Shown here piece after piece: positions 21,784 to 64,000 of a stretch of 64,000 nucleotides of DNA. The position numbers and the translations under genes were made by a program. The notes beneath the pieces are model-generated. The model was not told the DNA's origin, did not search any database, and worked only from the letters and a program-made list of their open reading frames with translations. Numbering within the stretch: the first letter of the stretch is position 1; every line of letters begins with the position of its first letter. Origin of the DNA: Pseudisothecium myosuroides (lineage: Eukaryota > Streptophyta > Bryopsida > Hypnales > Lembophyllaceae); the NCBI GenBank assembly GCA_951799445.1, contig OX637297.1, positions 12,028,001 to 12,092,000 on the forward strand, written 5' to 3'.

Positions 21784-21865
21784 TATGCCATATTTAACTA
21801 CTTCTGGACTTTCAATAGTCCAAAATTAAAGAGGCGGTGAAATCCCCTGATGTTTTTCTATGGAT

Positions 21866-22480
21866 CTGGAGATCTCCTGAAATAGGAACGCTTTGCATGC
21901 ATCCAATTCATCACCCACAAGTATGTCGGGGAGTGCTTCATGTGCTTGGAAATGAAAGAAATCATGTAGTTGTAACATAGCGGATCCGTGGTAGAGTTCA
22001 CATGATTGTATTGGGAGATCTGTGGACCGGGTTTCCGTAGTTTAGGCATCCAATTTACAGCACAACTGAAGTCTCAGAACCTATCGAGAGATCCCCCGAT
22101 GACCACCACTTGTTGCAAACATGGCTCCCATCCCATATTAATCCCTTAGTGAGCGTTGATCTTCACATAATTCTATTGGGAGATCCCCTGATGGGGGTGT
22201 AGAATATGAGTCGGCTTCACTGACAATCTTGGTGTCGAAGTGGGGTACAATTTGATTCCTGTGCTAAAGTGCAAGTGATATCCGAGTTCATCAAGAATGA
22301 TTCACAATAAGGCACGAGGGGGGCGATTCTTTCAAAGATATATGGTATCCCGAGAGTTCAAAGGAAGTACACACAAGTGGATTTGAAATTCAAACATCAG
22401 TTGACAATTACTAAATGAGCAATTGCTCTTGGGAATAAGGAGTCCAGTTCTAGGATTCACCGGGAGATCCCCCGACGGAC
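21866..22480. repeat. GATC-centred palindromes, variant CGGGAGATCCCCCG
   Basis: Near-palindromes centred on GATC occur at 21866-21879 (CTGGAGATCTCCTG), 22084-22100, 22175-22192 (ATTGGGAGATCCCCTGAT) and 22459-22476 (CGGGAGATCCCCCGA), with weaker ones near 22010. Surrounding DNA shows no gene. They precede the more perfect copies at 23.1-26.6 kb. Confidence 0.55.
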
Positions 22481-23120
22481 TGCTAACATAGTGGAGCTAA
22501 GGTAGTCAGGATATGACGAAGTGACAGGGGCATATCACAGTAACTTACTCACAGTGATATTTGAAGAACTGTAGACCACTGAGTCACAGGTGCTCAGACG
22601 TTCAACATACATCTGAAGATGAATAACGGCTAAGTAAACATAATATTCCATCCGAAATAATGACAGTAGTTTCAGTTTGTGTAAAGAACATCAAGGTTCT
22701 TTCACTGCAAAAAATAGATTCGTACTTGGTTGAATGTCCGCTATATAATTGTGAAGATGCAAAACCTAGAAGACTAGAATTCCAACAGTGTAACTGTGAG
22801 AGAAAAGAAATGCATTATTCAGACTCATTTGAGTGCATGTGTGACCCGAGCAATGTATTCTGTTCCGGACACAAACATAAACCACTTCCATTTCAGGAGA
22901 CGAGAGGAAGAAAGACATCCCGCGCTTGTGCTATCAAGTCATTGCCCCCGTGCCGCACGCAAAGAATAGAAATCATAAACATATTAATATATTCATACAG
23001 ATTTATTTTACATATACAAGTCACAAAAAGCAGCTCTGAAAAACTAATCGAAGAACAGTCCTACTGACTCAACGGACTGTACTTCGAAACCCCCACTTGC
23101 GGCTGCGCTTAGTGGATGTA

Positions 23121-23243
23121 GAATGCGTCGTGCGATATCATGATGGCAGTCGCGCCCCGCAGAATGCATCGTGACATCTCACGATTGCCGCGACGACCGA
23201 CACAGTGCATCGGGAGTTCCCACGATGGCAGTAGCGACCACAG
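23121..23243. repeat. Three tandem ~40-bp units each built on a GATC/ACAT-type palindrome
   Basis: Each unit reads (G/C)AATGC, an 18-bp palindrome-like core, then GGCAGTCGCG-like sequence. Cores are 23127-23144, 23168-23185 (ATCGTGACATCTCACGAT) and 23209-23226 (ATCGGGAGTTCCCACGAT). Outer arms ATCGTG/CACGAT are kept while centres differ, as expected if the arms are what matters. Confidence 0.65.
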
Positions 23244-23574
23244 ACTAGGCACTCAATCATGGGTCCACCACGTTTGCCCGATTCAAATTCACTAAGGCAG
23301 CCTCCCTACTCTTCTGAGGAATCGTCCGTGATATTTGATCCACTCTCCTGGACCAATTCGCATACACTGCAGCACCCGCGTCCACCGAGGTGGGGGGACT
23401 TTTTTCAACGACCCATTTACCGTACCAGCAATTCCGATAAATCAATTCCAGACTCATTTTGAAGTTATCGGGTCGCCAGTACTAAAGCAAGAACTTCCCG
23501 TTATTCACATCTCCTTCCAATCTGCATACAGTAGACAATGATCTTCCCTGCCAAACAGCACATGATTCCGGGAC

Positions 23575-25725
23575 TTACGGTCTGACAAGTACCCAACAGC
23601 CTGGTCGTATGTCTAGCCATGGATTAAAGCTTTCCCTTGGCGCTTCATTTGCAGGGCCGCAGTAAGGCTCCGGCTCCTCTTCTTCCTCCGGAATCACGTC
23701 CATGGGATTCATCGTCGATCCTGGGCGAGGGACTCCATTACGCGCCACCCTCCAATCGTGTTGTGGCCAGAAGCCTTCCACCAACTCCAGAGGACACTCG
23801 GGTAATGGTTCCTTCAGCTCATCGAGAACACACTTCCAGTAATCCACGTATGGACTGAACGCAGTTGCAAATCCCTCGCATCTAGAAATATCGTATTGCC
23901 AGTACTGAATGTATTTCTTGAGTCCTACCAGCATGAAACCCTTGTTCAAGGTAGCTTTCCGCGCCGCTTCCCTTGCCTTCTCTTGATTTCCATGCGGTAT
24001 CGGAACCTCGCTGCCCCACATGGGCTTAAACGGAACAGGCTTTGGATAGCCGTGAGGGAGCATGGGCCAACCATTGCTGTCTGTCTTCCAAATGCGTTCA
24101 GAAGGTTTCTTCGACGGCAACCAGTTCAAATCAACTGCTGACCTTTTGAAGTTCATGACGGGGACCCCATCAGTGTCCACGTAGAACTTGAACAGGTGCA
24201 TCTCCCCCAATCCAATTAATTTTTCCCCGCGATCACATTGGTAACCCTCCACGAACGACTTGAAATCCCCCACCTCCTGTATGAACTCCAGCATAAATGA
24301 CAGTTCTTGGGACTGCATGAAGGCTTTCATGAGGTCAGCAACGACAAAAGTGTTCTTGGTCTTCAGGGCCTTGGAAAGGTGGCTGAAATATGCATCAATG
24401 TCCTCGTGAGTGTGTCCGACTAGTAGAAACCCAACCTGAATTTCCTTGAAGACACCTCCTGCAGTGAGCATTCCTCCGGGAGGAAGGAATTTTAGAGTGT
24501 CCATTCGCCCGTTCCTGATGCCGCGCAATTGGTGGGGCATTTGATCAGCATTCTCGTCAATAATGGCTTTCATAGTCCCAGCAACCTGAACAGTCCGAGC
24601 CCGCGAGCGCTTAACCCCTTTGTTTCCGTGCGTCCCTGATACGATGCCGTCGTTGTACATCTCGATGTAACTGTGGTAAGTGAACTTCGGGATGCCGTGA
24701 ATTATGTGCCACGCCTTGCCACAAACATCAACTCCCTCTAGCGTGACGTATTTCCACTTCCGCTCCCGCTCCCCGTACCTTTCGTGTAGTTGTCCTCCCA
24801 TTCCAATCCCATATTCACGGCGCTCGTCAAACAACTTCAAGTAGTACTTCTGCCTTACTAACAGCGTGAACTCCTGGTTATAATGCTGACAACAGAGACG
24901 TCTGCAGCACTTCTCCGAGCTGACTTTCCGAATCTCCTCGTCTGCCGTTTTGCGGGAGTACTGCGATTCCTTCAGTTCCAGATTGGATTTGCAAACTATA
25001 AACCGGTATGGTGCTTTCATTCTACCTCCGAGGTAAGCGAGAGGGTCGTCCATGTCGGGAATGGCGGCAAAATGATCCACTGTCTCCTTCAACGAACGAC
25101 CGTTGGGAAACCAGCACTTCGAAATTGGCCACCTGTCGTGAGACATTATGGCTTCGGTGTCACCCACAAAAACATCGAGGACTGTCACACCTATTAAACC
25201 TTCACCAAGTGCCTCCTCTTGGAAATGATCCTCCGGCCTCCAACAAATGATACGACCTACGGAAACGAGGAGTCCGTCAGCATCCTTCCGATGCACATCA
25301 AGTCCAAACCAGGCTCCTTGACGAATATACGGACATGGATCCATCGGGGGATCCACCGACGCTCTAACAACATCGGCGGCTCTCCACGAAACTACATTCT
25401 CTTGAACATCCTCTAATGTGTTCATACCCCTCTGACAAGGAAAGCATTTCAAATCCTGGAATTTTAATTTGATAGAATGAGGTCGCACCAGAATGTAAAT
25501 CCAAGGCTCAACAGGTATGGGCACACCCAGCCACTGGCCCTGGGGACGAACCTCTTTAACGATTCCTGATCCAACTTCACCGAATCCAGGCACAAACAGC
25601 TTAACCCAATCACCATTCACAAACGCTTCACATCCACTGGTGGAATCCTGTGATTCACCCTCTACATGCGTTCCGTCCACATACGGAACTATCGCGTTAG
25701 CAGCAGACTCACAGAATGAATCCAT
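23575..25725 (-). CDS. Transposase-like protein (VGHTHEDID family, DUF7869-like), 716 codons, open
   Basis: The longest uninterrupted frame in the window, from ATG at 25725. Residues ~37-115 form an SH3/Tudor-like block (GDWVKLFVPGFGEVGSG) also seen in the gene at 62.6 kb. Residues ~265-370 carry KCCRRLCCQ and then the VDVCGKAWHIIHGI pattern typical of this transposase family. Near residues 420-450 is VGFLLVGHTHEDIDAYF, its hallmark. A charged C-terminus follows (PEEEEEPEP). The frame ends LVRP at CCG-TAA inside a good donor-like GTAAGT, so the protein may continue by splicing. In relatives I recall, a longer segment with conserved Asp/Asn lies between the LPPG and GVFKEIQVGF blocks; here they are almost adjacent, suggesting an in-frame deletion. 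GATC palindromes flank it and one lies inside (25343-25360). Probably nuclear DNA transposition; activity doubtful. Confidence 0.7.
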   Translation of the reverse strand: MDSFCESAANAIVPYVDGTHVEGESQDSTSGCEAFVNGDWVKLFVPGFGEVGSGIVKEVRPQGQWLGVPIPVEPWIYILVRPHSIKLKFQDLKCFPCQRGMNTLEDVQENVVSWRAADVVRASVDPPMDPCPYIRQGAWFGLDVHRKDADGLLVSVGRIICWRPEDHFQEEALGEGLIGVTVLDVFVGDTEAIMSHDRWPISKCWFPNGRSLKETVDHFAAIPDMDDPLAYLGGRMKAPYRFIVCKSNLELKESQYSRKTADEEIRKVSSEKCCRRLCCQHYNQEFTLLVRQKYYLKLFDERREYGIGMGGQLHERYGERERKWKYVTLEGVDVCGKAWHIIHGIPKFTYHSYIEMYNDGIVSGTHGNKGVKRSRARTVQVAGTMKAIIDENADQMPHQLRGIRNGRMDTLKFLPPGGMLTAGGVFKEIQVGFLLVGHTHEDIDAYFSHLSKALKTKNTFVVADLMKAFMQSQELSFMLEFIQEVGDFKSFVEGYQCDRGEKLIGLGEMHLFKFYVDTDGVPVMNFKRSAVDLNWLPSKKPSERIWKTDSNGWPMLPHGYPKPVPFKPMWGSEVPIPHGNQEKAREAARKATLNKGFMLVGLKKYIQYWQYDISRCEGFATAFSPYVDYWKCVLDELKEPLPECPLELVEGFWPQHDWRVARNGVPRPGSTMNPMDVIPEEEEEPEPYCGPANEAPRESFNPWLDIRPGCWVLVRP

Positions 25726-25885
25726 TGTCAGAGTGAGCTCTATCGAATCCCGTGGACGAGATTAAAACGATCCGTAAAACCTGTACATCATACCTTCAAG
25801 GAGTTAGGCATGTCTACAGAAGAGCGCTCCATTCATGGCATTGTAACCTCACGACATGAAGGACAGAAGCATCAACGTCTGTACA

Positions 25886-26566
25886 GTCGTGGGAACTCAC
25901 AATCACACGGCAATGCAACATGAACAAGTGAATCTAGTTACTGTCAACAAGAAGTTTGAAAGCCCAGACGCGATAGTGCGATCTCAAGAAGGCCGTCCCA
26001 GAACCACTGGGAAGAAGCCAAGGCATCCAGGAAAACGTTGCAGAAGTTTAGAAGACATTAACCAAAGAACGTTCAGTACATCGTGGGATCCCACGACACT
26101 CTTGGCGCTTAATCACTCAAACCAGAGATCGCGATATTCCAAGATCCTCCTAAGGGATCACATAGACCGCTACAGAAATACAAATGAAGTAGTGGGTCAA
26201 ACTGAATCACTCTGATGAGTCCCCGACATATTATCAATCAATCGTGGGATCCCACGAGTTCAGTATCCTGTAAAATCCGGAAGAGTGTTTGTGAACCCCC
26301 CCGAGTAGGAGAACCTGGTGCCAACCAAAAATGTGATCGTGAGATCCTACGATGCTTATACAAGATCGACGAGAAGTATGACGGTCATCGATAAGTAAGG
26401 CACCTAGACGTACACCAGGAAGGTCACAGCCAAGGTTCAATCGATCGTGGGATCCCACGACGAAATGATAGAACATCCCTCGACTACCAGACCGCGATAT
26501 CTCTATACTCGAAGACTGAGAGGTCTCGCCCACGCTCAATACGCGGAGATCGTGGGATCCCACGAT
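25886..26566. repeat. Perfect GATC palindromes ATCGTGGGATCCCACGAT, six sites
   Basis: Sites: 25886-25903 (degenerate), 26080-26097, 26241-26258, 26336-26353 (ATCGTGAGATCCTACGAT), 26444-26461 and 26549-26566 (perfect 18 bp). Four share TCGTGGGATCCCACGA exactly. Spacing is irregular (95-190 bp), so this is not a tandem repeat. They lie just upstream of the transposase-like gene start, on its promoter side. Confidence 0.85.
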
Positions 26567-26569
26567 GCT

Positions 26570-27898
26570 TACGTATGTTGGATATATACACGTATTCTAC
26601 TATCGTAGACCGACGTATTTACCAAAGATCGTGAAATTAGGTTTCCTGTCACTGGTTTCATGACATTCGACACTCTATAACTATTCTCAGTTACTGTACA
26701 AAAATTCTCTACTTTTAAAGTGGATTTTGTTGTAATTCAGACTCCTGAACCTCCATGGGTACAATAAGAAACGTTCTTAGAAGTAGTTGAATTTGATGGC
26801 TGGGTTTTCCTCATGTAAGCCCGCCTAATTCCTAACGCAACCTAATTTCAGTACTTTGTGAAGACGTTCTGACTGGTTGTCATCCACGTACAAGGTTCTC
26901 ATATCAACTTGCCCTCAGGGCAGTGCCGTCCCGCGATTCAAAAGGAACCTTGATGTCACCACAGCATGGTGATCCCTTAAGCACGTGAGTTTTTCGCAAA
27001 ATGAGACCAATGCGCGAAGAAAATTATCTTAGACTCCGTTTCACTTTCAATCTACGACATCCTCAGTTTGTGATAGAGTGCAGTGGCGTCAATTCGACTA
27101 CAAAATCCTCAACATTCGGAATCGCATAACACTTGCAAGGGATGCATTCTTACCTTGCAGCAACTGGCTCGGTCATAACTTCGTGCGCCTCCACGCCCAC
27201 TCTGTCGCCAACACCGGCAGACACCCACTCGCCACTCCGCAGCCTGCTCCGCCTGTTCACGTGTGCAATCGAAAAGAGCAAGCTCCAGGTTCTTTTCGGG
27301 TTATGAACCAGGTGGCTGGTTGGAATTCTTCAGCTCTGAATTCCCGCCGCGAATTTTGAAATCACCAAGCGATCCTTGATTCCGAATGTTGGATGCGTTC
27401 TTGAATGCCGTGCCACAATCAACAACGGCTGGGGGGTACGTGCGGTCCTTCACTTCGGAAGTTGATTGCATTCTCAAATTCCGCGCATCTCCGACTACAA
27501 GGAGGGAGGGCGTGGGGCTCTTGACTTTCTGACTGGAACTTCGCAAATCCAGGCTTCACTGAAATTCCGATTCTTCACTGACATTTTGAAATTCGCCGCA
27601 TTCAAGGATGGTATCGTTGCACCGTTTTCTAGGAGTCAATGATGCTTTGACCAAAGCGGATCAAACTCTGAAGACTTTCACTTCACAGAATGTCACATGC
27701 TTCCCCGATCAATACTCGAAATTCTTCCCCTACACGACCTGATCATACGTATCCTACAGAAACGAACTGTACCAAATCTCGTGAACCCGAAAGCTTGAGC
27801 ACCTGAAACATGTGGAACACCTCACTTACAAAAAAAATCAACAAAAATTTTGAACTCTCGAATGTTCATATTTGTTATTTTCTATTCCAATGAATGCA
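26570..27898. other. Non-coding stretch upstream of telomere-like tract
   Basis: No gene recognised. Between 27.08 and 27.6 kb the DNA is GC-richer and repeats short motifs like ATTCCGAAT and GAAATTCCG, but no sustained reading frame or conserved motif appears. Confidence 0.4.
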
Positions 27899-28120
27899 AT
27901 CTTAGGGTCTAGGGTCTACAGTCATAGGGTCTACAGTCCACGGTCATAGGATTTAGGGTACATGTTGTAGTGTAGTGTTCACGGTTTCAAGGTCATGGTT
28001 CTTGGTTTCAGGGTTCAGGGTTTCAAGGTTTAATAGGGTTTAGGGTATACAGTGGCAGCGCTTTACATTAACGTTTTTAGGGTCTGCAGTTCATGGTTTA
28101 CGGCTTTTAGGGTTTAGGAT
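27899..28120 (+). repeat. Degenerate telomere-like tract
   Basis: Scattered units such as CTTAGGGTCTAGGGTC, TTTCAGGGTTCAGGG and ATAGGGTTTAGGGT are interspersed with TTCATGGTT-like variants over ~220 bp. Same strand sense as the tract at 21.24 kb but far more diverged. Confidence 0.6.
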
Positions 28121-35638: not shown

Positions 35639-38630
35639 CTATAAAATATAGAACTCCACTCCCTCGCTGTTGCCTTCTACAGTAGGGACAACAAAGTTGT
35701 CACCTGGCCGAATGAGATTGCCAAATCCCTCGCCTTCCACGACCTCCTCCCAATCCTCGTCATCTGCAACGTCGTGGTCCGTCATATGGTCAGCAACTAG
35801 TTGGAGATCGTATGGCTTCAACTTTACCAAATCCCAGTTCTCAACATGGGACTTGTTAACGTAGTTGACGAAATTGCCATCAAGGCAATAAACACAGAAG
35901 CACGATAATTTGCGCACAAAAAGTTGCGTTGGGTCCTCAACAGCAAAAGAGTAAATCGAATGTAAGGCCTGCGACCCTGAAACATTCTTGCAATGGTAAT
36001 TGCGCACCCTCGTGACGTCCTTCGGTATTTCCCAGAAGTATCTCTGAACCTCTTTGATGCCGCTCTTCTCGAAGTTCGTATCCACAGTCCTTCCTATGGT
36101 CTCATTCAAAAACGCCACTGCACCGTGGGCGTTTTGCATCCTCCCCCACGTGTTGTGTAAGTGGGACTGCCTTTGAGCGTGCTTGACAACAGCACCAGCT
36201 CCATCCCACTCTCCCTTCCTGTGACTTGTTCCGAAAAAATTCCAGCTCATAGTGCAACCATTTGTCAGGCCGGGATATCTGGCCACAAAATAAAATAATC
36301 GGGCACCCTTGAACTGCCCCGCACAGCCGTCGGACCACACGACGTGGTGCTTCGGTCGAATCCCTATCGATGCACGTACAAAAGTCAATACACTCCGTAA
36401 CATTTACAAGTGTTGTACAAAATTGGTACAGAAAGTACATTTTACGGTACACACGCATCATAGTCAGAGAGTTCCATGCCACCCACAATTAACTCTTATA
36501 TAAGAACTAGGCATAGAGCGCAAATGAGAAAGAGATATGGTAAATACAAAACTTGGGGCAATGTGAAGCATACCTTGAGACTCTAGCCATCGCCAGTGTT
36601 GCATCAAGCAATGCTGTACAAAAGGGAATCGTGCTTTTCATCATCAGTTATGTAGAAATGGGATTCCTTCACCATAACTCCGTCTGGTTTAAAGCGATAC
36701 GTGATGTGGACAAGGATACTGATCTGTGTGGAGCACCAATACATGCTCTGGATCTGATTTTGAATCTCAAAAGTGTAGTTCTTAGCAAAATCAATATGTG
36801 ACAAAATCACATCTTTGCCCAAACTCTGCATAGAACGCTTGCAGTGGTCGTCCTGCCACCTCGCAATGAAATTGTGCTTCACAAACTGGGGTAGTTTAGA
36901 CTTGAAGTATTCAAAGAACACTTGTGGAGAGATCTCTTTGTATACCTTGACAATCCTCTTCCGGGGCTTCCCATCCCGTGTCACCCCAATGATTTCATTC
37001 TCAAAACACTTCCAGGTGACATTTGAAGACAATGATAACTCAAGAGGGCAAATCAAAAGCTTCAAAATACCACAGTCTCCGCACGTACCCATGACACATT
37101 GCAGAGCATGCCACTCTTCGTTCTCAGGCTTACGACAAACGATCTGTTGCCATAGCGCTGTTGTACCTGCATATGTCTTCAGATGCGCTTTACACTTTTT
37201 TTCTTCTTCCAGTCCAAAGAGGCACACATCTCACACGCACTGGCAATTCTCTAAGAAGTGGATTTCCTTTGTGCCATCTCGAATCCGATTGAACCCCTCC
37301 CTGAGCATGTCGATCTCCACGTGGTATCTACAATAGCAGACGTTCCTCTCATTGCACGCTCTAACAAAGTAAGGCTTCAATTTCTCAAAGGCTCTCTGTT
37401 TGATTGCCACGTCTGGGTGTGCCACCTTAAATCGCTGGTGGAATGCGGCCTACAAGAATGCAAATTTTCTTGAAAAGTCAAAAGAGGTAATACAAAAGAG
37501 GTAATCAAAAGTACAAAGCCCGTACAAAATATACCTTGGACCGTAATTCCCAGAATAATACGTCAAGTACAAGCCTCCAACAAAGCAGACCACCCGACTA
37601 CAAAGACTTTCTAAATACTTGACCATGAGACCCACAGTACTCTTTGTACATAATGTATAGTTGTTAATACAGCACGTACCTTGTAACATTGTAATCAACG
37701 TATTGCAGGGTACACATTCAGACCATCAGAGAATTGAGGGAGATACAACAAGGTGCATTGCGTACATGTTGGATGGAAACGATGTCTAGGATTGTATATT
37801 TGACAATGCAACATTTGTACAGGGTGCTGCGACACTGCAATCAAATCGATTCGTACCTGACTTTTGAGCAAATAGTGAGTGCAATGCTTGTCGTACGTAT
37901 TTGGACTTATCCATTTCTGTACAATTTCCTTCCTATTGGGACTTACACGGGTCTCTTCTGTCCACCACTTTGTAACGAGGTCTTTAATCTCGCCAGGTAG
38001 TCCTGGCCTCTTTCTACGTCTTACGAGTGCAAAAGGTGAAGCTTGCAATCGTACACTACTTTGACAGGTTATTGCCACCCTCAAATTGGATGGGTGAACA
38101 TTCAAAACCCGTGACAAAGCTTTGGTGTTTGTAACCCGAGTAGATGTAGCCACATCTAGGAGAACAGCCTTCCTAGCGAGCATATCTGTTGATTGAACAC
38201 CCTTTACAGCATCCAACTCCAACTGATAATTTTTTAGGAATTCGAATTGAGCCTTGGCATCCTGCCCACGAGGATAATACTCAGGAAGAAATGGAGAAGT
38301 ACATTCGTCCTCCAAAAAACGCTCCATAATTTTTAGCCTAGAAGATGCCTCCGAACAACCTTGCATCTTCATTGTGAAAAAATCCACAATTTCGGACGAA
38401 ACCTCCGCAAGCTGTCGTGAAGACATCTCCCTTCCGACCTCCAATTCATCCTGCACAGCAAGTAACCTCGCTACTTCTTCTCTCTCCCTCAACAGCTGTC
38501 TACGTTTACGTTGCCTCTCTGCTTTCCCATCTCTTAGACCCTCCCTCACCGCATTGTGATCCTCCGCCCTTCCACGAGGTCCCTTACTCTTGAATCCGGC
38601 ACGTTGCTCTCCAAGTCTTCTATTCGCCAT
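35639..38630 (-). pseudogene. Transposase-like gene (SDGCAGQFK / GEWDGAGA type), multi-exon, decayed
   Basis: Starts at ATG 38630 (MANRRLGEQRAGFKSKG); exon 1 runs to about 37860 at a GTACG donor. It contains an arginine-rich N-terminus, FFTMKMQGCSEASSRLKIM, and KWWTEETRVSPNRKEIV followed by THYLLKSQ. The 37441-36574 block gives KLKPYFVRACNERNVCYCRY, HVEIDMLREGFNRIRDG, a Cys motif NCQCV-stop-DVC (TGA near 37227), and ARWQDDHCKRSMQSL; a frameshift near 36626 leads to FVQHCLMQHWRWLESQ. After a short intron, 36403-35639 gives VVWSDGCAGQFKGARLFYF, WNFFGTSHRKGEWDGAGAVV and an acidic tail. These last motifs mark a family seen in plants and algae and look like an RNase H-fold transposase core; that fold is my inference. 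GTAC motifs fill its introns and flanks. Confidence 0.6.
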
Positions 38631-50770: not shown

Positions 50771-51480
50771 CATCGTAGCAACCATAGTGCTCAAATCCAT
50801 GAGGATAGAGAGCATTTCCAATTTTCATTGATCATTGCTCTCTTTGCTTTCAATTTTTCCATTGCAATATCCTGGTTTGCTTTATATTGTAGAGGAACTT
50901 GACCATAATGCCATATTTAACTACTTTTGGACTTTGAGGGGAATTTTGGACTTTGTTAGGATACTAATCATTGGGTGTTCTATCGATATTAGGATTTTAA
51001 AAGGCACAATGGCTTTGAAAGTAGGAAGGAATACATTAAATGGAGCATTTTTATATATGATTGAAAGATGGATTGCCAAGAAAATTGAGTAAGTGCAGCT
51101 AGAGTTAGTAGTGCACTAGTACTTGACATGAATTGTTCGGAGATTTCTCAATGTGTAGAAGATTATAGAAATTTGGGATTCCCCGTGTTGCACAAGGTAG
51201 ATGAATTCGGAATAATGTCAAAATGCGAGGGATGATAAGAAATACTTTTAGGCCAATTGCATTTCCGCAGTTTAAGATAGGGGAGATCTCTTGATATAAT
51301 CCCCACAACATTATAAGAGTACATACAAAATGACAAGGCAAATGCAATTACAAACACTTAGTACAATGGGATCTGAATTGAATGGTAAAGGTGGGTTCAC
51401 CACATTTTATTCAGGCTTATACAAAAAATAATAACATGCATCTATCAAATCAAATGAAGGCATTGCCTGCAATATCCATT

Positions 51481-52410: not shown

Positions 52411-53109
52411 CACAAATTTGTTTACATTGCACTTGTAACTGATATTTAACTAATTATGGACAAATCCATAGTCCAAAAATAAGTCGGCCGCCCGCCAATA
52501 GAGTAGAATCCAACGTTCTAAGTGTAAAAAGCAATGAAAGAAAATGAACGCCATGAATACTGGAAATGAAACTCCATAATATATTGAAAGTGGCAAAGTA
52601 CAGAGTTCATAATTAGCTATGAAATGAAAGCTGCTAAGAAGTCGGAGCAGAAGTCTTGGCACACTGTTGGCCTCCAGCTGATACTCCGTAGCAATCAGAA
52701 AATTGCGTCCCTTGAACAAGGTAAGTTGTCTAAACTACGAAAACCGGGTAAGATTGCCAACTATTGAAAAAAGTGAAACACACTAAAGATGTGCCTTAGA
52801 CACTAACTACAACTGCTACAGTGAAATATTTGAGGAGTATCAGCTGGCAGCCAATATCCTAAAGAAGGTCTAAAGAACCACAGAACAGGTCCTAAAAGAA
52901 ACAAATGCGACGAAGGCGAAACAGCTGGTTTGGTTGATAGAGATGATGAAAGTTGATGCAGGTGACGAAGCAGACAAAGTTCACCACATTCGTCCCTACA
53001 ACCGAAGAAGGTTATCGGCTGGCAGCCCATACTAGAAAGGAGTAACTACCAGAATATTCCCCTCCAAGTAGGCTTCCCATACTTGATGGCCTATGCCACT
53101 TCATAGTAT

Positions 53110-53690
53110 CACTGGCCCAGTCTTTTGGAGACTTTCACATATTCCGAAACTGACTCATGCTCGTACATAGGATATCTGAACAGAACAATGTCAGTTGAAA
53201 TGTTTGGAATAACTCTACTATCATTTGGAAAGCCGAGTTCCCCCACAAACGGCAATGGAATATTTCACGCCGGATCAGGTGTCCTCCACAACAAAAGCAG
53301 GCAGACGTCAACCATGAGAACTTGGTCCATGCAACAGAATTCCTTGGATGGGCCTTTCTTAAAAAGAGTTTCGAGCATCTTGTAGCACCACGGAAAATTT
53401 TGATGATCAACACAGAATTCTCTCCCATAAACAAATGCCAGCTTGTCAATGACATGTCTCGGAAGCAGGTGCGCCAACAATGGACGAAGCTCTTGCATTG
53501 GCATCTTCGACCAAATCGCCACGTGGAACTTCTCAAACAATGTCAAGAACATTCCAACGATCCCTGGCTGTCTGACGACGTTACGGAAAGGGTCCCACTT
53601 ATCCACCGTAATATTTGGGTCAACAAAACAAAGCAGTCTCGTGACGCAAAGAACGACACATTTTTTGAATGAATGTGGTTGTCCATTGGT
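53110..53690 (-). pseudogene. FCP1-like HAD domain, downstream copy
   Basis: Minus strand. LLCFVDPNITVDKWDPF is placed like motif I. RQPGIVGMFLTLFEKFHVAIW then SKMPMQEL matches the FCP1/SCP region ending in motif II (VYIWSS). DKLAFVYGREFCVDHQNF corresponds to the segment before the last acidic motif, seen as CCMDQVLMVD. A later YPMYEHESVSEYVKVS is unassigned. Frame changes occur near 53300-53330. Family role: Ser/Thr phosphatase. Second of two HAD blocks in tandem on this strand. Confidence 0.5.
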
Positions 53691-54613
53691 TGACTCCTTA
53701 ACAATAAAGAAATGTGACGACGCAAGATAATGAGACACGGATAAGAGAGCAAAGAAGATTGCTAAATGTAATATCAGCTGCCAACCGATATGCACGACTG
53801 ACAATATAAACTGAACGACAATAAAAGCAACATTAATCCAGAAGCAATGATTCAGCCTGAACAGCATCCATGAGACACTAGCAGAAAATTCTTGAGGTAA
53901 AATGGGACTTGCCTGGCCATATATGACAGAGCTCGCTTTCGCCCTGAAAACCATCAAACGCTTCTTTAAAGAGTTTGGTGGTATAGCACAACACTATAAT
54001 CATGTGGTGCAGAGTTATAGGTGCAACCGGTGGAACTCCACCACACAACCTCTGCGACACGTAATGACAAAGTTCCTTCAGAGTTCAGCACCAAAAGCCA
54101 AGTCCAAACGTCTGCAAGACTATGTCATTACATGTTGCAGAGGTTTTGTAGTGGAGATCCAGCGGCTGCACCTGCAAAATCCACGACACCTGATTACAGT
54201 GTTCGTGCCAGAACGATCAAACTCTCGAAGGAAACATTTGAATGCTTCGAGAGCAAAACAAATATCCGCCTTGTATAGCCGGACATCCGGCCATAAATGC
54301 CTTTATTACAGCTAATTGCTTATGAAAATATTTTTACAAAAGTTCTAAAAAACCTAGAAGTTGTTGGCTAGGTCTAACAAGAATAAACACTATTTAACAG
54401 TTGTATGTCGGCTGCCAGCCGATACATTAAACGCCCTCCTCCGAAAGGTTGACGGGCGTCCTCAGCTGGTACATCCAAAGCTACTAGTTCTTCCTCCATG
54501 TAGGGCACCTCGAACCCCTTCTGACACTCGGGCACAACTGTAATGTATAAATTATACTCAGTCAAACTCGACATGCAGCGCGGCAGACCGACCTTGCAAT
54601 TGAGTTCGTAGAA
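53690..54613 (-). other. Spacer with possible decayed exons between HAD blocks
   Basis: Contains palindromes at 53772 and 54406. A frame near 53900-54060 (minus) carries FKEAFDGFQGESELCHIWPG, and two related blocks (ATGTAATGACATAGTCTTGC and TTTGTCATTACGTGTCGCAG type) repeat within 54060-54180, suggesting an internal duplication. No family recognised. Confidence 0.3.
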
Positions 54614-55340
54614 CTAGGGAACCAAGAGCCCCAAAGATAGTAAGCCCCTCAAGAACGGGATCATGAACTGCTGGAGGAAGGGTAGTTTCCCGGCCTTCAA
54701 TTTGTTCTCCGAGTACATTGTACATGGAGGTGGATGAACAGCATTGTAAGGCAGATTCAAAATGTTCCTGTAAGGAGCATGATTGACAATCAATGAATTG
54801 TTTATAGAAGCCTCGCTGTTGTACAACTGCGGCACGTTGCCGAGGATCCGTGCCAGACGCTTCAAAAAGATTAGTTTTCCGGGATTTCGCGGATCTCGAT
54901 AAGTGCTCATGTCACAGTACTCCTGCCCAAAGGCTAGGTACTTTCCTACAATGTCCGGCACCTTCCATCTAATACTGCCTAGACATAATTCCAGCTTCTC
55001 AAGGGGCAAATCCGACCAGAAAATAATCCTAATGTCCTAACTAAGGTAGAAGTTTAGAAAAGGTTGAAGTCCAAGACGATCTCTTATTGCAGACCTCTGA
55101 GTCATACTAGCTCCCTTGAAAATGGTAGGCTCATAGAATATTAAGGTTCCCGGGACCTCAAGGAAAAGAAACAATTTCGGAGACGCTACTTGTGGAGCGT
55201 CAGTTGTGGATGTGGTGGCTCTAGTGTCAAGAGCCGGTTGGCCAAACTCCACACCGCGTGCAGACAGGTTCCTCTCGGAGGGCTCTGAAGTTCCACAACC
55301 AGAATCTGCAACAACAAATGAAGTGAATAAAACATGAGAT
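54614..55340 (-). pseudogene. FCP1-like HAD domain, upstream copy, catalytic Asp residues missing
   Basis: Minus strand, one frame except TAG at 55037-55039. FLFLEVPGTLIFYEPTIF sits at motif I but lacks the D-x-D. LGLQPFLNFYLS-stop-DIRIIFWSDLPLEKLE covers motif II. LAFGQEYCDMSTYRDP follows, then SLIVNHAPYRNILNLPYN and AVHPPPCTMYSEN match the late motif (LLIDDSPYK then NPPYNAVHPP) with acidic residues changed. It is therefore a dead or pseudo-phosphatase version. It lies downstream of the ParB-like exons on the same strand, separated by a Pro-rich region. Confidence 0.55.
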
Positions 55341-55400
55341 GCAATACAAGGAATTGAAAGGGACAACAGCACAACAAAGTATCCGCTGGTAGTCGACACA

Positions 55401-56510
55401 CTACATGAATATTCTAGTCTGCATAGCTAAAGGCTCGAACTGACAAGTCCCACAGAACAAGTCGGAGCCAGGCAGCACTAACTGTAATTGACCGCTTCTA
55501 GATACTCCCCAAATAGCCGGGAATATGTCTATCGCGTACAAACCTCCAGATCGTGTTCGTTTAGATGCTGCCTGGCGAATGGGGGACAACACTTTGTTAG
55601 GGAAGTCCAGGTTGGGTGTGTCTTCAAACGCCGCGCCTTCGTCTCCCACCAAGTCGGTGCGATCCCGCTTCGGCTTTGATTGGCCCGAGCGAAGAGAGCC
55701 CGACCAAGTCAAAGTCAGTTCGACTGGGGCTCCTTTGCTCCTTTCTCGCCGCGGTTCACTGAGGGAAGCATCCCCTTGTATCGGTTGCCTGCCGATAAGA
55801 ATATCAGATGCGGTCGCCAGATTTTCCATGGCTATCGCTTGACCTGACGCCTGGGCATGAGGCAGAGCCGGGTTTAGATCCACGGGTCTAGTTCCAGATC
55901 TAATGATCTCCTTAGAAGGCGGGACAGCATGCAGGTCGACTACCATGGCCGCTTGCGTGCCGGTACCACCAACTCCTCCTATTCTTGCTTCCCCGGGAGG
56001 TGACGACTCCACTCGAGGTTCCTGAGCTGTTCTTGTAGGAGAGGGGAGCGGTCTAGGATCTGGAACCCGAGCTGGTGCAGGAGAATGAGTTCGACGGGTC
56101 CGCGATCTGCCGTCAAGGTTTTCTACGCCGGATTTTTCACTTTACGAAACATCTTGCGAATCCGGTTCTGCGAAGAGTGGCTGCCTTGGGACTGGCGTGC
56201 CCAAAGGGGGAGAGGAAGCAAGTTCAACAAAGCCGGCGATATCCTATCGAGGAGACATGGATGCCGACTTGGGCTGAGGCTGCGGAGCAGACGAAGGAGG
56301 CGTGAGAGTCCCCTATCCCGAGCCGCCAGCACTCCCAAATTCCATTACTCCGAGCAAATCCCGATGAGGAACCAACCGAGAAAGAACCACCTGAGCAGCA
56401 GCAAGTAAGTTCATTCCCTTCATGCGGTCATGTGCACTGGATATGCCATCCTCCTCCTGAACGAATTCCAGCACGGGTCGGCCATTCCTCTGGAGACCCA
56501 ACGAAATATA
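55401..56510 (-). pseudogene. Proline/basic linker region between ParB-like and HAD blocks
   Basis: Minus-strand frames are coding-like but of low complexity: PAPARVPDPRPLPSPTRTAQ, GEARIGGVGGTGTQAAMVV, SGSLRSGQSKPKRDRTDL. A palindrome at 55779 lies in the open frame and reads LIGRQPIQ. In-frame stops and shifts occur near 56130-56250. Likely a disordered linker or separate N-terminal region of the HAD protein. Confidence 0.4.
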
Positions 56511-56519
56511 GTCAGTTAG

Positions 56520-59500
56520 GTTACGTATCGGCTGGCAGCCGACAGGAATGAATTAAAACAAGATTGAGCAAAAGGCAAGACGAGCAGTAGAGTGATCAAC
56601 TTACCAGAGCAATCTTGGTAACGTTTCCACCTCCCCAAACGTTTATGACGGTGTAGACCTTGGATTTGAGTGTCGGGTTCAACAATTGCTCCAGAAGCCC
56701 GTGGCCGACGCTACACATCCCACCGTTCCAGTTCACCTTGCCCTCGCCATCCTGATTGTACTATTCCATCGGCCTCTGGATCCCGGTGTACTTCTTGAAC
56801 ATCAGAAAAATGGTGGATCGGTCCTCCGGCTTCGGGTATGTCAAGGTCAGAGTGACCATTGACTTTGGCTCCAGTTTGCCCTTCAGGAATCCACCACGAG
56901 GAGAAGGCTGGTAGTACAGCGTGTGGAAGTACCACGGAGATGTCGAAGAATAAGCTGCCAGTGCAAGGGAATCCTTAAAGCACGAGTTGCCAATGAGGAG
57001 CATTGGAAGAGGAATGTTTGCTTCCATGGAGAATTCACCTTCCTTGTCTTTTTCCGGGTCTGCTTCTGTGGCGCTTGTGATTTCTAAGAATTCGTGCTTG
57101 TTCACTGATATAGGGTCCCCACTCTCAGTGTACCCAAACAGCACCACTAGCTTCTTGTCTTCAATTTCCAGACATGAAGGCTCCCCCCCCGCCACAAACG
57201 AACTGCACCACCTTGTCGGTAGTCTCCCCCAGGCAACATTCGTACATCAACTCGGACCCACTCTCCTCCACTGGATCCACTGAGATCGTGGCGTATTGCG
57301 ACAAGGTCGTAAAGAAGACCCCCGGAACCATTCCATCGGTCGACTTATCCGTTGTCGGATGCATGGGGTTGACACGCTCGGTCAACCAGGTGTTGCCGTT
57401 CGTGAATTTCTTAACGTCCTTCCACACGTTCCTGATGATAGCAGGAGAATAGCCCTCCTTGTCTGCGAGTTCTTTCCACGCTTTGTCTGAGTAAGGCACC
57501 CAAGAAGCATCCTTACAAGGAAGGGGATACTTCTTCTTGATCCACATGATCTCGTTCATCACGACCCGGTTGAGCTTCTTATCCCTGCACTAGTCGATCA
57601 GAGTCACCTTCCCCGCAGAACACACCTTTGCCGTCTTCTTTATGCTGACACGGAGGGCGAGAATGTCCTGCAAGAGTTCACAGAGGTCTGAATCATGGAG
57701 GCCAAGTGTTGGTGTAAGATCCTCTTTGGTGATGTGCATCAGGGGTTTTTGATTGACGATTGAATTCGGAATAGTCCCGTCATCGCCAACAAGCTCACCA
57801 TTTTCCAAGGCGTCGAACACCTCCGTCCAGAGTTCCCAGGTCTTCTCCTTCATGAAGATCAGCGGAAGCTTGGACGACACCTTCTCGTCCACGAAATGCG
57901 CCATGACACTGAGCTTCGCTGCCTGGAGCAAATCACATCCCCAAATATGAGAACACGAAGAAGGGGTATCGGCTGGCAGCCGACAGGAAGGACACTTCAT
58001 ATGTTTTTTAAAAACATAGAAATATTTAGTAAGTAGGACAAAAACATAACTCTTGTCGGCTGGCAGCCGATATAATTGCGAAAGGAGAATGGATACATGC
58101 TTGATTATAGTTACTAATAAAAGAAACGGAGAAAATGATGAATACCTCAAACTCCGGCATCAGCTTGCCTCCACCACAGTGCGGCTCCGGACATCCCACC
58201 TTCACCCACGCCGCCCTCTCCATCTTCGTGCAGGACCGGAAGTTCTCCTTTGCTACCTTCTCCGCGATGTTCAAGTTTAATGCGTTCGAGATGCGGACGA
58301 GTGTGGCCGGGTCTCTACTAAAAACAGGAATCACCTGAACTCGAGGAGATCTATCTTGGCCGGCGAGTTGTCGGGGTACTGCTCGGCCAACTCTCGACAG
58401 GCAGTGACGGTATGCTGGCCCCCAATGATGTACCAATGCACATTCAGAGCCTTCCACCAGTCCACAGACACACCATCAATGACCACGTCGTCCCCTCAAC
58501 CGGACAACTGTCCATCACCGCATCCAGCCCATTGTCTGTTGGTAAGGGTGCTCGCTTCAACGAAATGCCGTGAATCTCGGGCTTTTTTTTGATAGACCCA
58601 TACCCCTTGTACATGGTCTGTATCTGAAGTCATACGAGATCTGAAGGTCAGAAAAGATGTTGGAATATGTCGGCTGCCAGCTGACATATGAGACATGAAC
58701 ATTATAAATTATGAAAGGGGCAATGACGGAGGACTTTGAAGGAATACCTGACCAAGTCGATCCTTCACGATCTTTTGGAACTTCAGGTCGGCTGGAGCAA
58801 TGTGGAGCCTATCTAAGGGAATGAAACCCGATAGTCGCCGCTTCTTGTAAGGAAAGGCGTGCGACAACCCCTCTTCCAGAGCCTGGTAGATGGCAGTCAC
58901 CTCGTTGTCTTTGGTCTTCATAGTTAGGTGATTCCCACAAACCAGTGCTTCGTCTAGTGTCAGCTTTATCATCCTATTGGGATCATCCTTCCCCTTTCCC
59001 TTCCTCGTGGGTTTGTTTGGCAATCCAACCTCCACAATAGCAGTTTCACTATCGGCTACCGTCGTCTTTGCCAACTGCTTTTTTGACGCGGGCACCTTCT
59101 TCTTGCCCTTCTCTTTCTCCTTAGTGAGAAGAGCATTCTCCTGGTCCCTCTCCGCGTTCAAAATTTCCCAGCCCATGACAAGGTCCTCAGCATCAGCGGG
59201 CGAGTTGCCCACAAATGTCATGCCCTTTGAAATTGACTTGTCTCCACATGCTTCCTCCGTGCACTTGTGGACTGGCAGCTCCACCGCAAAATAGTCCGGG
59301 TCGCCCTCCGGATTACCGATCGGGTGAAGGCAGATCATCACGTGGACGTCCCCACCAATGGCAACTACGGACAAGACGTTTCCGTGACCGGGCATCATGT
59401 TCCCCTTCAACTTGAAGGAACACACAATCTCCACCGGACGATCCGGAAATTCCCTCCAGCATAAACCCCACTCCTGGATAGCAGGATTTGCGTTCCATGT

Positions 59501-59593
59501 TGCGCGTGGCATGAACCCATCGCCCCATATGTGCGAGTTTGGAATACGCTCTCCGAGAAGTCTGGCCATCAATATTGGTTTCCTGCACAGCAA
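56520..59593 (-). pseudogene. ParB-like domain gene, multi-exon, decayed
   Basis: Minus strand, exons separated by introns that carry the 19-bp palindromes. Exon ~59580-58748 (acceptor GTGCAG, donor GTATTC): ARLLGERIPNSHIWGDGF through a Lys-rich stretch to PADLKFQKIVKDRLGQ. Exon ~58617-58140: GDDVVIDGVSVDWWKAL, NVHWYIIGGQHTVTACREL, then after a frame slip near 58336 VIPVFSRDPATLVRISNALN and LNIAEKVAKENFRSC. GGQHT followed by IPV and ALNLN is laid out like ParB/Spo0J nuclease-fold proteins. Exon ~57930-57161: TWELWTEVFDALENGELVGD to SDLCELLQDILALRVSIKK, then YPLPCKDASWVPYSD. After a slip in a C8 homopolymer at 57183-57190: KKLVVLFGYTESGDPISV to STIFLMFKKYTGIQ. Stops include TGA near 58487 and TAG near 57590. 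Molecular role inferred only: DNA binding or nicking. Confidence 0.5.
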
Positions 59594-60290
59594 TATTGAA
59601 GTCCTTGAGCTTAGTATACAGTTATCGGCTGGCAGCCGACAGACCTTGACAAGTTCTACTAGTCACAGACTAGTGTATGGGCTGGCAGCCGATACCTTGC
59701 AACATTTCCAGAATCATCCTAGTAAGAATTATATCGGCTGTCAGCCGACATACTTTGGTGGTAGGCTGCGGAGGGAAGGTGGGCACAATGTCGGCTGGCA
59801 GCCGATACATTTTGCGAGTACCTAAATCATTATTGTGCGAGGTATATCGGCTAGCAGCCGACATAGTTCGAGGACGGGCTATTCACGGCCTCTTGAACAA
59901 TGTCAACTGCTAACCGAGAGAAAGAGCAACGTATAGATGGGTGACACTACCAAATGAAGGAACCTCTCAAGAAGGCTATTACAATGCATGAAAGAAGGAA
60001 CCGTATCGGCAGCTAGCCGATACAACGGCAGGCAAGGTACCTTTCACTCTCTGGAGTTGAGGACGCCATTGTTGCTGGCTTTAGTCTCTTATCGGCTGGC
60101 TTGCATCTCCTGTCGGCTGGGAGTGATGCTCTCTCTCCTCAAGCGCAAAATGTATCGGCTGCCCTAAAAACCGTGCCGGCGGCGCCTGAAAACCTATCGG
60201 CGAGGACGTAGGAGCTCAGGGATCCGACGGCGTGTCAGCTGCAAGCCGGAGAGAGGGAGGGAGAGGGAGAGAGATAGACAATCTTTTCAA
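59594..60290. repeat. Palindrome-dense leader region
   Basis: Six 19-bp palindromes in 400 bp (59623-60022) followed by degenerate and half sites to 60245 and a GAGGGAGAGAGA tract at 60247-60275. No coding frame of note. It sits at the 5' side of the ParB-like exons and could be the element's terminus or control region. Confidence 0.6.
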
Positions 60291-62400
60291 TCTTTTCACC
60301 CCAGATCAGGGCATTTTCTGACAAATCAAACCTCAATCTATTTTCATGCGTATGTAAGAAGTGTACTACAAAATACAAATGATATCAACACTAGTAAGTA
60401 GAAATCCTTTTGCATTAAAAAATCCAAAATACCACAATACCAAACTATGAACCACTTGTGGCTCATGACTCAGTTGGGATGGTGGGTGGGTATCCTTTCC
60501 ACAGATTGAATCCCACATTCCCACTGTTCATGCTTTGATGTAAGCAATACTAAATAATATGCATGAATAGCATAATCATAAAGCAAGAAATAATGAGAGC
60601 ACATTGCCCAAGATAAGCTTGCAAGTAGAACATTCATTTGGATGCTTAGCCTGAACTTGAACTTCATATAAGTTCTTGAATCCTAGCTTCAACTTATGCA
60701 TCCTAGTAATATAGTTTGCACAAGTAAAGTGAATAACTCATGTTGAAACAAGAAAGAAAGAAAATGTTGCGATTGTTGAGTTACACTCCAATCTTAGGAA
60801 GCCACGCCTCACCTGTGCCCATGCCCACCAAACACACAAAAAGTTTGTTAGAGGACGTACACGAGGTGTCTTTAGCATGGCTTCACGTTGTTATCCGAAT
60901 CAAAGATTTTTGCGTAAAATAATATCACAATTCTAAGTGTCGTCCATGTAGCTTAAAGAAATATCATTGACAAAAAGCTACACGTGTAACTCCACATAAA
61001 AATTCACAAAGCATAGAACCTGAGTACTCATTTCTGTATCCATAGCAGTATCGATGGCAGTATCGAGGCAGTACGGCAGTTTGGTGCGACGCAAAGTAAA
61101 CCAGGCACAGCAAAAGATTGACCTCACACGCAAGGGTGGCAATGAGAAATGAAGGTGATCCAGAGACTACCAGTTTGTTTCATGGCACTGAAGATGGAGC
61201 AGTAAAGGCGTCCAGCCAGTAGTAGTTGCGCGCCAATTTCAAAAAGGTAGGGATTCCATACCCTGACACCTTTTCACTTGCTATCCATTTGCATGCTTAT
61301 CCACTTATGAACAGTGCATGCTTGTGAGGGTATTGCCCAGTACTGCAAGGGTATATAAAAGTGAACACATCTGTTATATATTGCCAGGTACAGCTCATTG
61401 CATATCCAATTGGGTATCAATTGAGTTCTTGGTCACTTGACTGGTAGGTGGTTGCTACATAGAAATGGAACCAATGAGTCATATGTATATATCTTCATCC
61501 TCATGTATGTAAAACTAGATATAAATACATCAAAATACTACGGACTTGGTCCATTCAAGATGCATTTTGGTTTTGCTCGATTTTGTGAGAATAATTTGTT
61601 CCGTCTCAACAACTCATAAACTAAAGAGAGAGAGGGAGAGAGAGAGAGCGAGAGCAAGTGAGCAGGTGGAAATGAGGGAAAATGAGAGTCGCCAGGAGAG
61701 TATACCCCCCCCTCCTCAATGAAGTGACGGCTGCCAGCCGGGAGGCGAAATGATGGCTTTCGTTAAGCGTATATCCCTTGTTTTCATCCATCCCGCATTT
61801 TTCATCCAACATCCGGTACATCTCTCCAAGCCAAGGACATCAAAGTGACAAACACTCATTGCGAGAAGATGCGTACATTTCGTTTCTTGATCCTGAAATG
61901 GATGTACCTGTCCCTTTTGTAATCACAACGAATTCATCCTTCTCCAGATTCAAATTTCAAGTGCCAAGTTGCTTCTCCCCCCTCCTTACTTAGGTCCAAA
62001 TTTGGCTCCAGTTCTTTCTTTCAGTTTCATTTGCTACTTGCGGGGACTCAGTCAGACCACGGAGGGTGCTTCAGGAATGAGTGGAATGCAGTGGAATTTA
62101 GGGCAATGCAGTGAATGACTTGAATGCAGTGGATTGCAGTGTTGTTGGGAGTGCACTGAAATGCATTGGATTAAGCTCAGTAGTTCAAGAAATAGTCAAA
62201 GACTTTGCAGTAAATCAGGGTTCAATCTGTGACTTCTTACTTCCATTAAGTTTGCAATGTCAGTCCATTTACAGCTCTCTTGGAGAATGTTTGGTCATTT
62301 GGTCAAAGCATACTACCTAGATCGTTGAATTTGATTTGGAATATTGCTTACTGAATGTTATTTAGGTTCTGATCTGCGCGGTCTAGGGTCATTAACTTGT
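60291..62400. other. AT-rich DNA, no supported gene
   Basis: Contains a GA microsatellite at 61621-61660, one isolated half-palindrome near 61728, and repeated GAATGCAGTG motifs at 62075-62165 (about seven copies of ATGCAGTG or near variants). No exons recognised. Confidence 0.45.
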
Positions 62401-62631
62401 CCGTACAGTCATTCTTGTCGGCTGCCAGCCCATAAGCTGGCTTCATGTCGGCTGCCTGCCGATAGAATCTACAGTAGCGGGTTGGGAGATAGAACTAGAA
62501 GCCTATATGCGGATTGTAGGTCGTCCTGCAGGTTGGTAATTAGCATATCGGCTACCAGCCAATAAGTTGATTCAAGGTCAAAGTGTATCAGCCGGTCCAT
62601 CATTGGAGGGGATTCTCGCCTATTCTGTATC

Positions 62632-64000
62632 ATGACTAAATCTGGTGACTACGGTTTGGATGCGAGTCCCATTGAGGCATTCATAAAGAATGGCAGTTCA
62701 GGGAGACTGAAGTTGCGGAAGGGAATTGTAGTTGTTCTAACCCTGGAAGGATTCTATTACGCTGGGCGGGCTGTCGTAGAAGAAGTCGTGAATCGGGACC
62801 CTTACCTTGTGCGTGTCCTTGTACTGGATGTCCCGGATAACCTAGACATGAAGATTCCGTTTCCGGAGGGGGACTTGCTTTTTCTCCGCCACTGCCCGGG
62901 AAGGTCTATCGTGTGGGAGGCAGGCAATCTTTATCCCCATGAGGAAGCGGAAGGGTCTCTTTGCGCTGGTGTCGGTCGGCAGCCAATACAAGTAAACACG
63001 GATAAAAAGCCCATTCAGCAGTTCCTCTCACTCACTCTTAATATGGAGGTTGCTCTCCTGCAAACTGTGGGACCCGACTTGCAATATGCGGGGGTTGGCG
63101 TAATTGAGGAATTCTCTCTGAAGGGTTTCTAGGAATGCTTCTGAGTTCCACACAGCTTCTTCCTGGTTGTTAGACTATTGGAAGTCGTTGATGAATTTAA
63201 GGATCACAATGCCTACTGCGAGATTCCAAATTACATGACCCTCAAACTCTGTGTCGGATACATAATTCTCTAGAGTGGTTACAAGGTCCGACCTATCGGT
63301 TCATCTAATGCGTCGCCTTTGACTGTCGGCGGCCAGCCGACATGTACCCGGTTGAACCAACTGGAGCAGCCATTTCTGGATGTTAACTGTGAAAGTGGTG
63401 GTAGCTCATATGACTTCCGCACTAACGTTGCCGAAGCGGCAGAGGGACAGAATCCTATCGTAGCATCGGACGAAGATGATCGAGAGGATAGGCTATACTT
63501 GTCCGATGATGAAAACCGCGGGTCTCCTGATCAGCGTTTCAACATGCATGGTTTTAGTAGCGATGGCGATTACGGATCCGATCCTAGTGCTGACGACAAC
63601 TTATTCGATTCGGACGCGTTTATTGGAACCAGTGGAAGTGGAGACCTCAACTGCAGCTCTGATGGAACACAGCCGATTGTTCCATTCCCTAACAGACCAC
63701 TTTGGAGAAATCAGTATTGTGAACTTTTGAATGACAACTTCTCTGTCTTCGGAAGGGCGATGATCCAGGTATGCCTTCCGAACGAGACCTGCGACGACGG
63801 CGTCCTCGGAGATTTGGATGTGGGTGTCATGTTTGATTCTGACCACGAGGAACTGCAAATGACAACCATGCGCTAGAGGTTGTTCCATACAAGATTAGAA
63901 GGGGGCAGGCTACTTTCAAAAATTGTCACGCTCTGTTCTGAGGCTGCTGAGATGAATGAGTCCGACGACGTTGGAATGCAGGGAGTTCCGAAGAATCCAT
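62632..64000 (+). pseudogene. Transposase-like gene related to the 716-codon protein, 5' part, runs off window
   Basis: Start ATG 62632 (MTKSGDYGLDASP). One frame continues beyond the window except stops TAG 63130, TGA 63142, TAG near 63271 and TAG 63874. Residues ~31-105 (GIVVVLTLEGFYYAGRAVVE, PEGDLLFLRHCPGRSIVW) resemble the SH3/Tudor-like N-terminus of the 23.6-25.7 kb protein. A second copy of that fold seems to follow (MEVALLQTVGPDLQYAGVGV). Then a long acidic Asp/Ser-rich region (SDEDDREDRLYLSDDENRGS). Two 19-bp palindromes lie in frame at 62970 (GVGRQPIQ) and 63324 (TVGGQPTC). No transposase core is inside the window. Confidence 0.45.

Follow-up and report, generated by a model that had tools for sequence, protein, structure and literature searches.

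Transposon proteins, TnpA of En/Spm among them, bind arrays of subterminal motifs, and bacterial ParB clamps load at parS. The described system closest to the one reported here is VANC/VANDAL of Arabidopsis, in which a DNA transposon carries non-coding clusters of short motifs, often in tandem, that differ between related families and are bound by a protein encoded by the element (PMC5735166). The VANC motifs are 8–9 bp long (YAGTATTAY; AGTTGTCC/AGTTGTAC), and the string 'palindrom' is absent from the main text of that paper (PMC5735166). Here we analysed a 64,000-nucleotide stretch of the moss Pseudisothecium myosuroides (contig OX637297.1, called C11 below, positions 12,028,001 to 12,092,000; 'the window'), part of which belongs to a transposon, transposon A, that carries a ParB-like gene, a DUF7869 gene and a cloud of 19-bp palindromes (palindrome A).

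Like TnpA of En/Spm, the system would involve binding of an element-encoded protein to repeated short sites, a putative likeness, whereas here the sites extend over the whole element, coding frames included. The likeness to bacterial ParABS lies in the ParB-like motif order, recognised by eye, and in palindromic sites clustered round the gene; the differences are the roughly 30 sites in each element, the eukaryotic genes with introns and the profile matches limited to weak PHROG hits. Compared with VANC/VANDAL, the transposons here likewise have motif clusters that are confined to the element and differ between families, within the sample examined. Unlike the VANC motifs, these are palindromes of 18–19 bp that also lie in introns and coding frames, and a ParB-like and a DUF7869 protein are the candidates; among the proteins scanned, no Pfam family of Mutator-type transposases or VANC homologues was found (we take Pfam to hold models for VANC). 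The first-pass annotation of this sequence had envisaged a new kind of eukaryotic mobile system. The cloud of sites and the element that carries it are confirmed, but the combination of motif clusters with a binding protein of the element's own is already known from VANC/VANDAL (PMC5735166).

Palindrome A belongs to a transposon

Palindrome A (TRTCGGCTGSCAGCCGAYA, 19 bp) occurs at 22 sites in the window at up to 3 mismatches, 6 of them exact, all between 52838 and 63342. Dinucleotide shuffles of the window (n = 100) gave a mean of 0.03 such sites, and positions 1–52435 hold none at the same threshold. When the window was scanned for any repeated palindrome, this cloud ranked first with up to 23 sites, against at most 6 in four shuffled windows. 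The first-pass annotation had described about twenty copies of constant length in introns, flanks and reading frames, all of which holds on the gene map; its remark that they occur in both orientations has little meaning for a palindrome whose asymmetry is confined to the centre and positions 2/18. Across the 172 sites in six copies of the element, the centre base is C in 85, G in 72, T in 9 and A in 6, and the second base is purine-degenerate (A 167, G 167, other 10; 344 half-sites).

The genome (388 Mb, 222 contigs) holds 605 exact palindrome A sites and none of the reversed control pattern. The 50 of these 605 that were listed, all on contig C1, form five clusters (at ~9.13, 9.60, 15.5, 30.3 and 36.5 Mb, the last truncated where the listing stops), which are exactly the C1 places with a ParB-like gene below 36.52 Mb. 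A search with a relative of the ParB-like protein, P0001, gave at least 96 matches (84 of 388 candidates scored) at no fewer than 54 places, matches within 5 kb being grouped into one place. Palindrome A was present at all 31 of the loci examined among these, namely 11 larger ones (the window, five C1 copies and five other subtypes) and 20 of 1.5 kb each, hand-picked from 43 and not random; each locus had been found through the ParB-like gene or listed with it on C1. The 20 short loci contain 59 sites at up to 3 mismatches, and an exact site is present in 12. By comparison, a control of 100,156 bases taken outside the elements in this genome, non-random and partly adjoining them, contains no palindrome A site. 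The genome-wide count and co-location that the first-pass annotation had proposed as a check thus came out in its favour, and an even spread unrelated to ParB-like genes is contradicted by these results. Palindrome A belongs to a transposon and is not a free repeat. Outside this genome, a pattern scan of viral_contigs returned 2 stretches, taken as chance, two protein scans of viral_contigs led nowhere, and tblastn against phages and plasmids gave no convincing match.

Transposon A is 13–15 kb long, with terminal inverted repeats of ~25 bp and a ParB-like gene divergent from the DUF7869 gene (gene 2). Six copies compared at full length, that of the window and e1 to e5 (alignments under 150 bp left out), share this two-gene plan and have 26–30 A sites each, most of them outside arrays and spread over about 13 kb; copy e4 is longer owing to a ~5-kb insert devoid of A sites. 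The window copy, a type ii copy of ~15.3 kb delimited by the other copies and the terminal repeats, runs from 52440 through the window's end at 64000 to C11:12095723, ~3.7 kb further on. The A sites at 52838–63342 reported in the first pass are thus real, but as limits these positions are too short, with 6 more A sites in the part beyond the window.

The left terminal inverted repeat, GATATTTAACTAATTATGGACA, lies at 52441..52462 on the plus strand (1 mismatch) and the right one at C11:12095697-12095718 (0 mismatches), the right end of the copy being placed at C11:12095718-12095723. In e1, e2, e5 and the window copy, CATATTTAACTAATTMTGGACAAAT is found at either end with small differences, and it is also present at the one end seen in each of e3 and e4. 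Flanks hint by eye at a target-site duplication of perhaps 3–4 bp. Copies e1 and e5 lie between unrelated flanks but share 99.4% identity over 13,125 bp; because this identity goes together with inverted repeats at both ends, the carrier of palindrome A is a transposon with recent movement. In long aligned pieces the window copy is 86–92% identical to two other copies; it is broken by stops and frameshifts, whereas long open frames are present in e1, a type i copy. A further copy of the terminal repeat, with 1 mismatch, stands at 50912-50933 and is probably the remnant of a third element.

Within the window copy, the ParB-like gene lies on the minus strand, with exon 1 at 58748..59582, exon 2 at 58146..58617 (two frame breaks) and exon 3 at 56605..57922 (broken by a stop and a frameshift). 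A sites lie in intron 1 (58668..58686, 1 mismatch), twice in intron 2 (57967..57985 and 58054..58072, both exact) and in an intron at 56526..56544 (exact), with splice sites placed for these four; at 55380..55398 (3 mismatches) the intron assignment is by eye only. Three more fall in reading frames: 55779..55797 (2 mismatches; IGRQPIQ, or IGGQPIQ in e1) and, in the frame of gene 2, 62970..62988 (3 mismatches; GVGRQPIQ) and 63324..63342 (1 mismatch), the latter two being spaced 354 bp apart in 6/6 copies. An array 5' of the ParB-like gene (59623..60022) comprises sites 59623, 59676, 59732, 59789, 59845 and 60004, with diverged spacers and a pitch of 53–57 bp up to its sixth site, 59901, which is degenerate with 5 mismatches. 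Upstream of gene 2 are sites 62416..62434 and 62446..62464 (1 mismatch each) and 62546..62564 (2 mismatches). The remaining sites are 52838..52856 (2 mismatches), 53013..53031 (1 mismatch), 53772..53790 (2 mismatches), 54406..54424 (exact) and the degenerate 61725..61743 (3 mismatches). Between the two genes, on the plus strand, three exact lone half-sites TRTCGGCTG start at 60090, 60111 and 60153 (60090..60161); apart from 23 masked full sites, the window has no other exact half-site. Further A sites of the element lie in 3' regions, and two stand between the halves of the DUF7869 gene, in what is taken as its intron.

Array pitch differs between subfamilies. Type i arrays combine irregular steps with a 77-bp pitch whose spacers are near-identical, and type ii arrays have a pitch of 53–57 bp and diverged spacers; three other loci have a pitch of 53–54 bp, and at two the steps are multiples of 30 bp (overlaps of neighbouring stretches ignored). 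Tandem duplication of the motif followed by spacer decay would explain this pattern, and a build-up of this kind has been proposed for the VANC targets (PMC5735166).

A second family with a different palindrome

The window contains a deletion derivative of another transposon, B, at 21789..26795, with the left terminal repeat as in A; its right end shows only a degenerate 17-bp inverted match. Palindrome B, ATCGTGGGATCCCACGAT, forms a cloud at 22083..26566, with 8 sites at up to 3 mismatches (22083, 23168, 23209, 26080, 26241, 26336, 26444 and 26549; 0.00 in shuffles) and weaker ones besides, and it came second in the any-palindrome scan with up to 11 sites. Both palindromes have the ends ATCG...CGAT, and their interiors differ. 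Genome-wide, palindrome B has 173 exact copies (reversed control, 0); among the 50 of these that were listed, the 14 on C1 lie outside all five A clusters and the other C1 ParB-like places.

Transposon B carries a DUF7869 gene on the minus strand (23260..25761) that has lost the middle of the family's proteins and matches PF25273 at 73 bits, against a cut-off of 26 (E 3e-20). Two other B places of 3 kb each have 8 and 7 B sites at up to 4 mismatches, no A site, and the start of a DUF7869 gene with 95–96% identity to that of the window over 162 and 132 residues. Adjoining the window's transposon A, at L024:8256-8690 (C11:12100256-12100690), is a ParB-like gene that has diverged to 30% identity; in this one example, a B-like palindrome lies past the end of exon 2, where A genes have intron 2. 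In P0009, a DUF7869 relative, the end is a read-through that contains IGRSPD, the peptide expected from translation of ATCGGGAGATCCCCCGAT. A third palindrome cloud at C11:12096-12110 kb has 7 sites and is weak, the same procedure having given up to 6 in four shuffled windows.

Genes of the elements and other features of the window

Gene 2 of the window copy is represented by its broken 5' part at 62566..64000 on the plus strand (matches to P0023 at E 1e-25 and 2e-14); the half with the DUF7869 domain lies beyond the window, at C11:12092792-12094768. Over 631–665 residues, gene 2 of five of the six A copies is 48–52% identical to P0007, which has the PF25273 domain, and in the sixth, e3, the match falls into two pieces. 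By sequence, gene 2 of A belongs with the DUF7869 proteins (PF25273; Physcomitrium patens A0A2K1KXP1, P0023), as does the B gene. The open-licence PubMed Central literature searched, which did not include bioRxiv, contains no mention of DUF7869, and we found no published description of this type of element.

For the other gene, the first-pass annotation had claimed a ParB-like domain. What stands is the motif order: GGQHT, VIP and ALNLN (in exon 2, IIGGQHT ... VIPVFSRDP ... ALNLNIAEK) fit by eye what we take to be ParB boxes II and III. A profile or fold match did not follow, apart from weak hits to three ParB-like PHROG families (E 0.097–0.23) among 7 weak families, the best of the seven (E 0.0051) being a family of unknown function. 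Pfam, NCBIfam and PDB profile searches of the protein found no ParB N-domain. Two AlphaFold models were too poor to use (mean predicted local distance difference test score, pLDDT, 37 and 48), and Foldseek with the latter gave no match at E 0.001. We call the protein ParB-like, a possible ParB. No ParA turned up in Pfam scans of the submitted frames, although no search was aimed at it.

Transposon A may also carry a HAD-like domain. An open frame at 53265..53993 on the minus strand looks HAD/NIF-like by eye, without Pfam support, and frames at 54614..55426 on the same strand are by eye homologous to a frame of e1 (L019:2029-2985; C1:9605029-9605985) whose match to the NLI-interacting-factor phosphatase family (NIF, PF03031) is below threshold (E 0.013, 15.6 bits against a cut-off of 21.8). 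A PDB search of the NIF-like frame led nowhere.

Elsewhere in the window, degenerate TTTAGGG-like tracts occur at 21235-21785 and 27903-28120, the former beside a 106-bp tandem repeat of 4.4 copies with 99% identity. The any-palindrome scan also returned an AT-rich family of 10 sites, of which 4 are in this 106-bp repeat and 6 are dispersed, and a family of 6 sites, ACTGTACAATATGTACAAT, rejected as an ordinary direct repeat with shared flanks; four copies of the latter near-palindrome stand at 17305-17667. Open frames at 31898-33589 and 35639-37230, one with SDGCAGQFKGARLFYF, look transposon-like by eye; those scanned had no informative Pfam match.

What may read the palindromes

We consider it likely, at a probability of about 0.7, that a putatively dimeric protein encoded by the transposon itself reads the palindrome. 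The reader would most probably be the ParB-like protein, otherwise the DUF7869 protein: the former is the first candidate because it occurs with palindrome A at every locus examined, and the latter the second because it is present with both palindromes. The ends ATCG...CGAT would then be a common contact and the palindrome interior a family-specific one. Binding over the whole element would mark or coat it, with the ParB-like and DUF7869 genes facing away from a shared control region that contains promoter arrays, and such marking would most likely protect its expression from silencing by the host, the role that VANC has for VANDAL.

The form of the sites is consistent with this reading. Among the 172 sites, 137 pair positions have changed, 132 on one side only, 4 on both sides without pairing and 1 on both sides with pairing, a count in which choosing sites by consensus limits double changes. 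One-sided change is what two protein half-sites varying independently would give, not what a conserved hairpin would. Between subfamilies, the places of sites are kept in introns, coding frames and 3' regions, while the flanks are mostly near random identity. For 12 collinear site pairs, each with one member from a type i copy and one from a type ii copy, identity is 0.86 at the sites, 0.51 in 60-bp flanks and 0.43 in random 60-mers, which suggests selection between living subfamilies. Peptides that fit such sites occur in relatives: P0001, of which a read-through frame is all that is available, shows CRLPADT and CIGCQPIH in the same two introns, the peptides that translation of the palindrome would give, and P0031 has similar peptides upstream (RRLPAES, CRLSADE) as well as VGCPPT at both coding places.

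Several observations weigh on the other side. The 12 collinear pairs were picked as recognisable sites, which inflates the site identity of 0.86, and the flanks of coding pairs, the most alike, reach 0.75. Among three type ii copies (six comparisons), sites change by 0.075–0.101 and flanks by 0.077–0.117; decay at about the flank rate suggests that these copies are under no clear present constraint and that selection on them has apparently ended. At the places of the coding sites, distant relatives including P. patens P0023 have GGPPI, GGPPT, GGPPS, DGPPI or SGPPI. This GPP motif would fit another palindrome in those elements; plain protein constraint is the sober alternative, in which case the coding sites may partly reflect the protein. 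In the sense of the transcript, 50 sites are G.U-capable and 26 have A.C (binomial 0.008), a bias that a pure DNA reading does not predict and that is weaker than it looks, the copies sharing history. Finally, the ParB fold is without support from the profile searches in Pfam, NCBIfam and PDB, from Foldseek and from the two poor models, and, against the ParB-like protein as the only reader, no ParB-like gene was detected in the B copy of the window, itself a deletion derivative, or in the two partial 3-kb stretches of B.

That last point leads to the strongest competitor, which we hold to be possible but unlikely: the DUF7869 protein is a transposase that binds the palindromes for synapsis and excision, and the ParB-like gene is a passenger. 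TnpA of En/Spm uses subterminal motifs, both palindrome families here carry DUF7869 genes and the same left terminal repeat, and no ParB-like gene appears in the B-copy pieces read. However, the sites are element-wide and the arrays lie mid-element between divergent genes instead of being concentrated at the ends, and ParB-like genes are not confined to A, as the gene at C11:12100 kb with its B-like palindrome indicates.

Somewhat more doubtful is that the palindromes are sites of a bidirectional promoter or enhancer, through which an element protein or a host factor regulates the element without coating or anti-silencing. The regular arrays upstream of the ParB-like gene, which lie between the two genes at loci where gene 2 is also seen, would fit such a role. 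Most sites in the six copies lie elsewhere, though, over about 13 kb, and a host factor is not obviously expected to switch its site between sister families.

Sites that act in transcripts as RNA hairpins, in introns, untranslated regions and coding sequence, are very improbable. Many sites do lie within gene regions and the sense bias above is of the kind expected, but a single one of the 137 changed pair positions keeps pairing by two-sided change, the arrays lie between genes and Rfam finds nothing in the window; we rejected the hairpin as main reading on the 132 one-sided changes, and an Rfam element on the missing match. Mini-palindromes that spread by themselves, like the palindromic repeats in which Volvox organelle DNA is rich (PMC2670323), would also be short and sit in introns and frames, but can be dismissed almost entirely, given the 0 sites in 100,156 control bases on which we rejected a free repeat, the collinear positions between subfamilies and, in relatives compared by eye, no insertion at the first coding site.

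Reading of the palindromes by an element-encoded protein also admits a bolder form, which we rate as slightly less probable even than the promoter explanation. The elements would be a eukaryotic transposon superfamily with ParB-type, possibly nucleotide-switched clamp loading at ~30 parS-like palindromes, the clamps spreading over the 13-kb element to keep it open; each family's own palindrome would be its address, written into coding frames and kept in step. For comparison, the most common eukaryotic form of the ParB fold is sulfiredoxin, according to a 2025 survey (PMC12704722).

Our best reading is that palindromes A and B would be subfamily-specific binding sites that mark their own element, by analogy with the anti-silencing of VANC/VANDAL. 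For most transposons it is an open question by what means a selfish element marks itself and nothing else. Here, two families have the same left terminal repeat and different palindromes, the site and the candidate proteins are defined, and copies that have diverged by <1% to >30% coexist in one genome, so that both code and reader are directly testable. If the reader is a relative of ParB, this would be the first such use of the ParB fold in a eukaryotic mobile element known to us.

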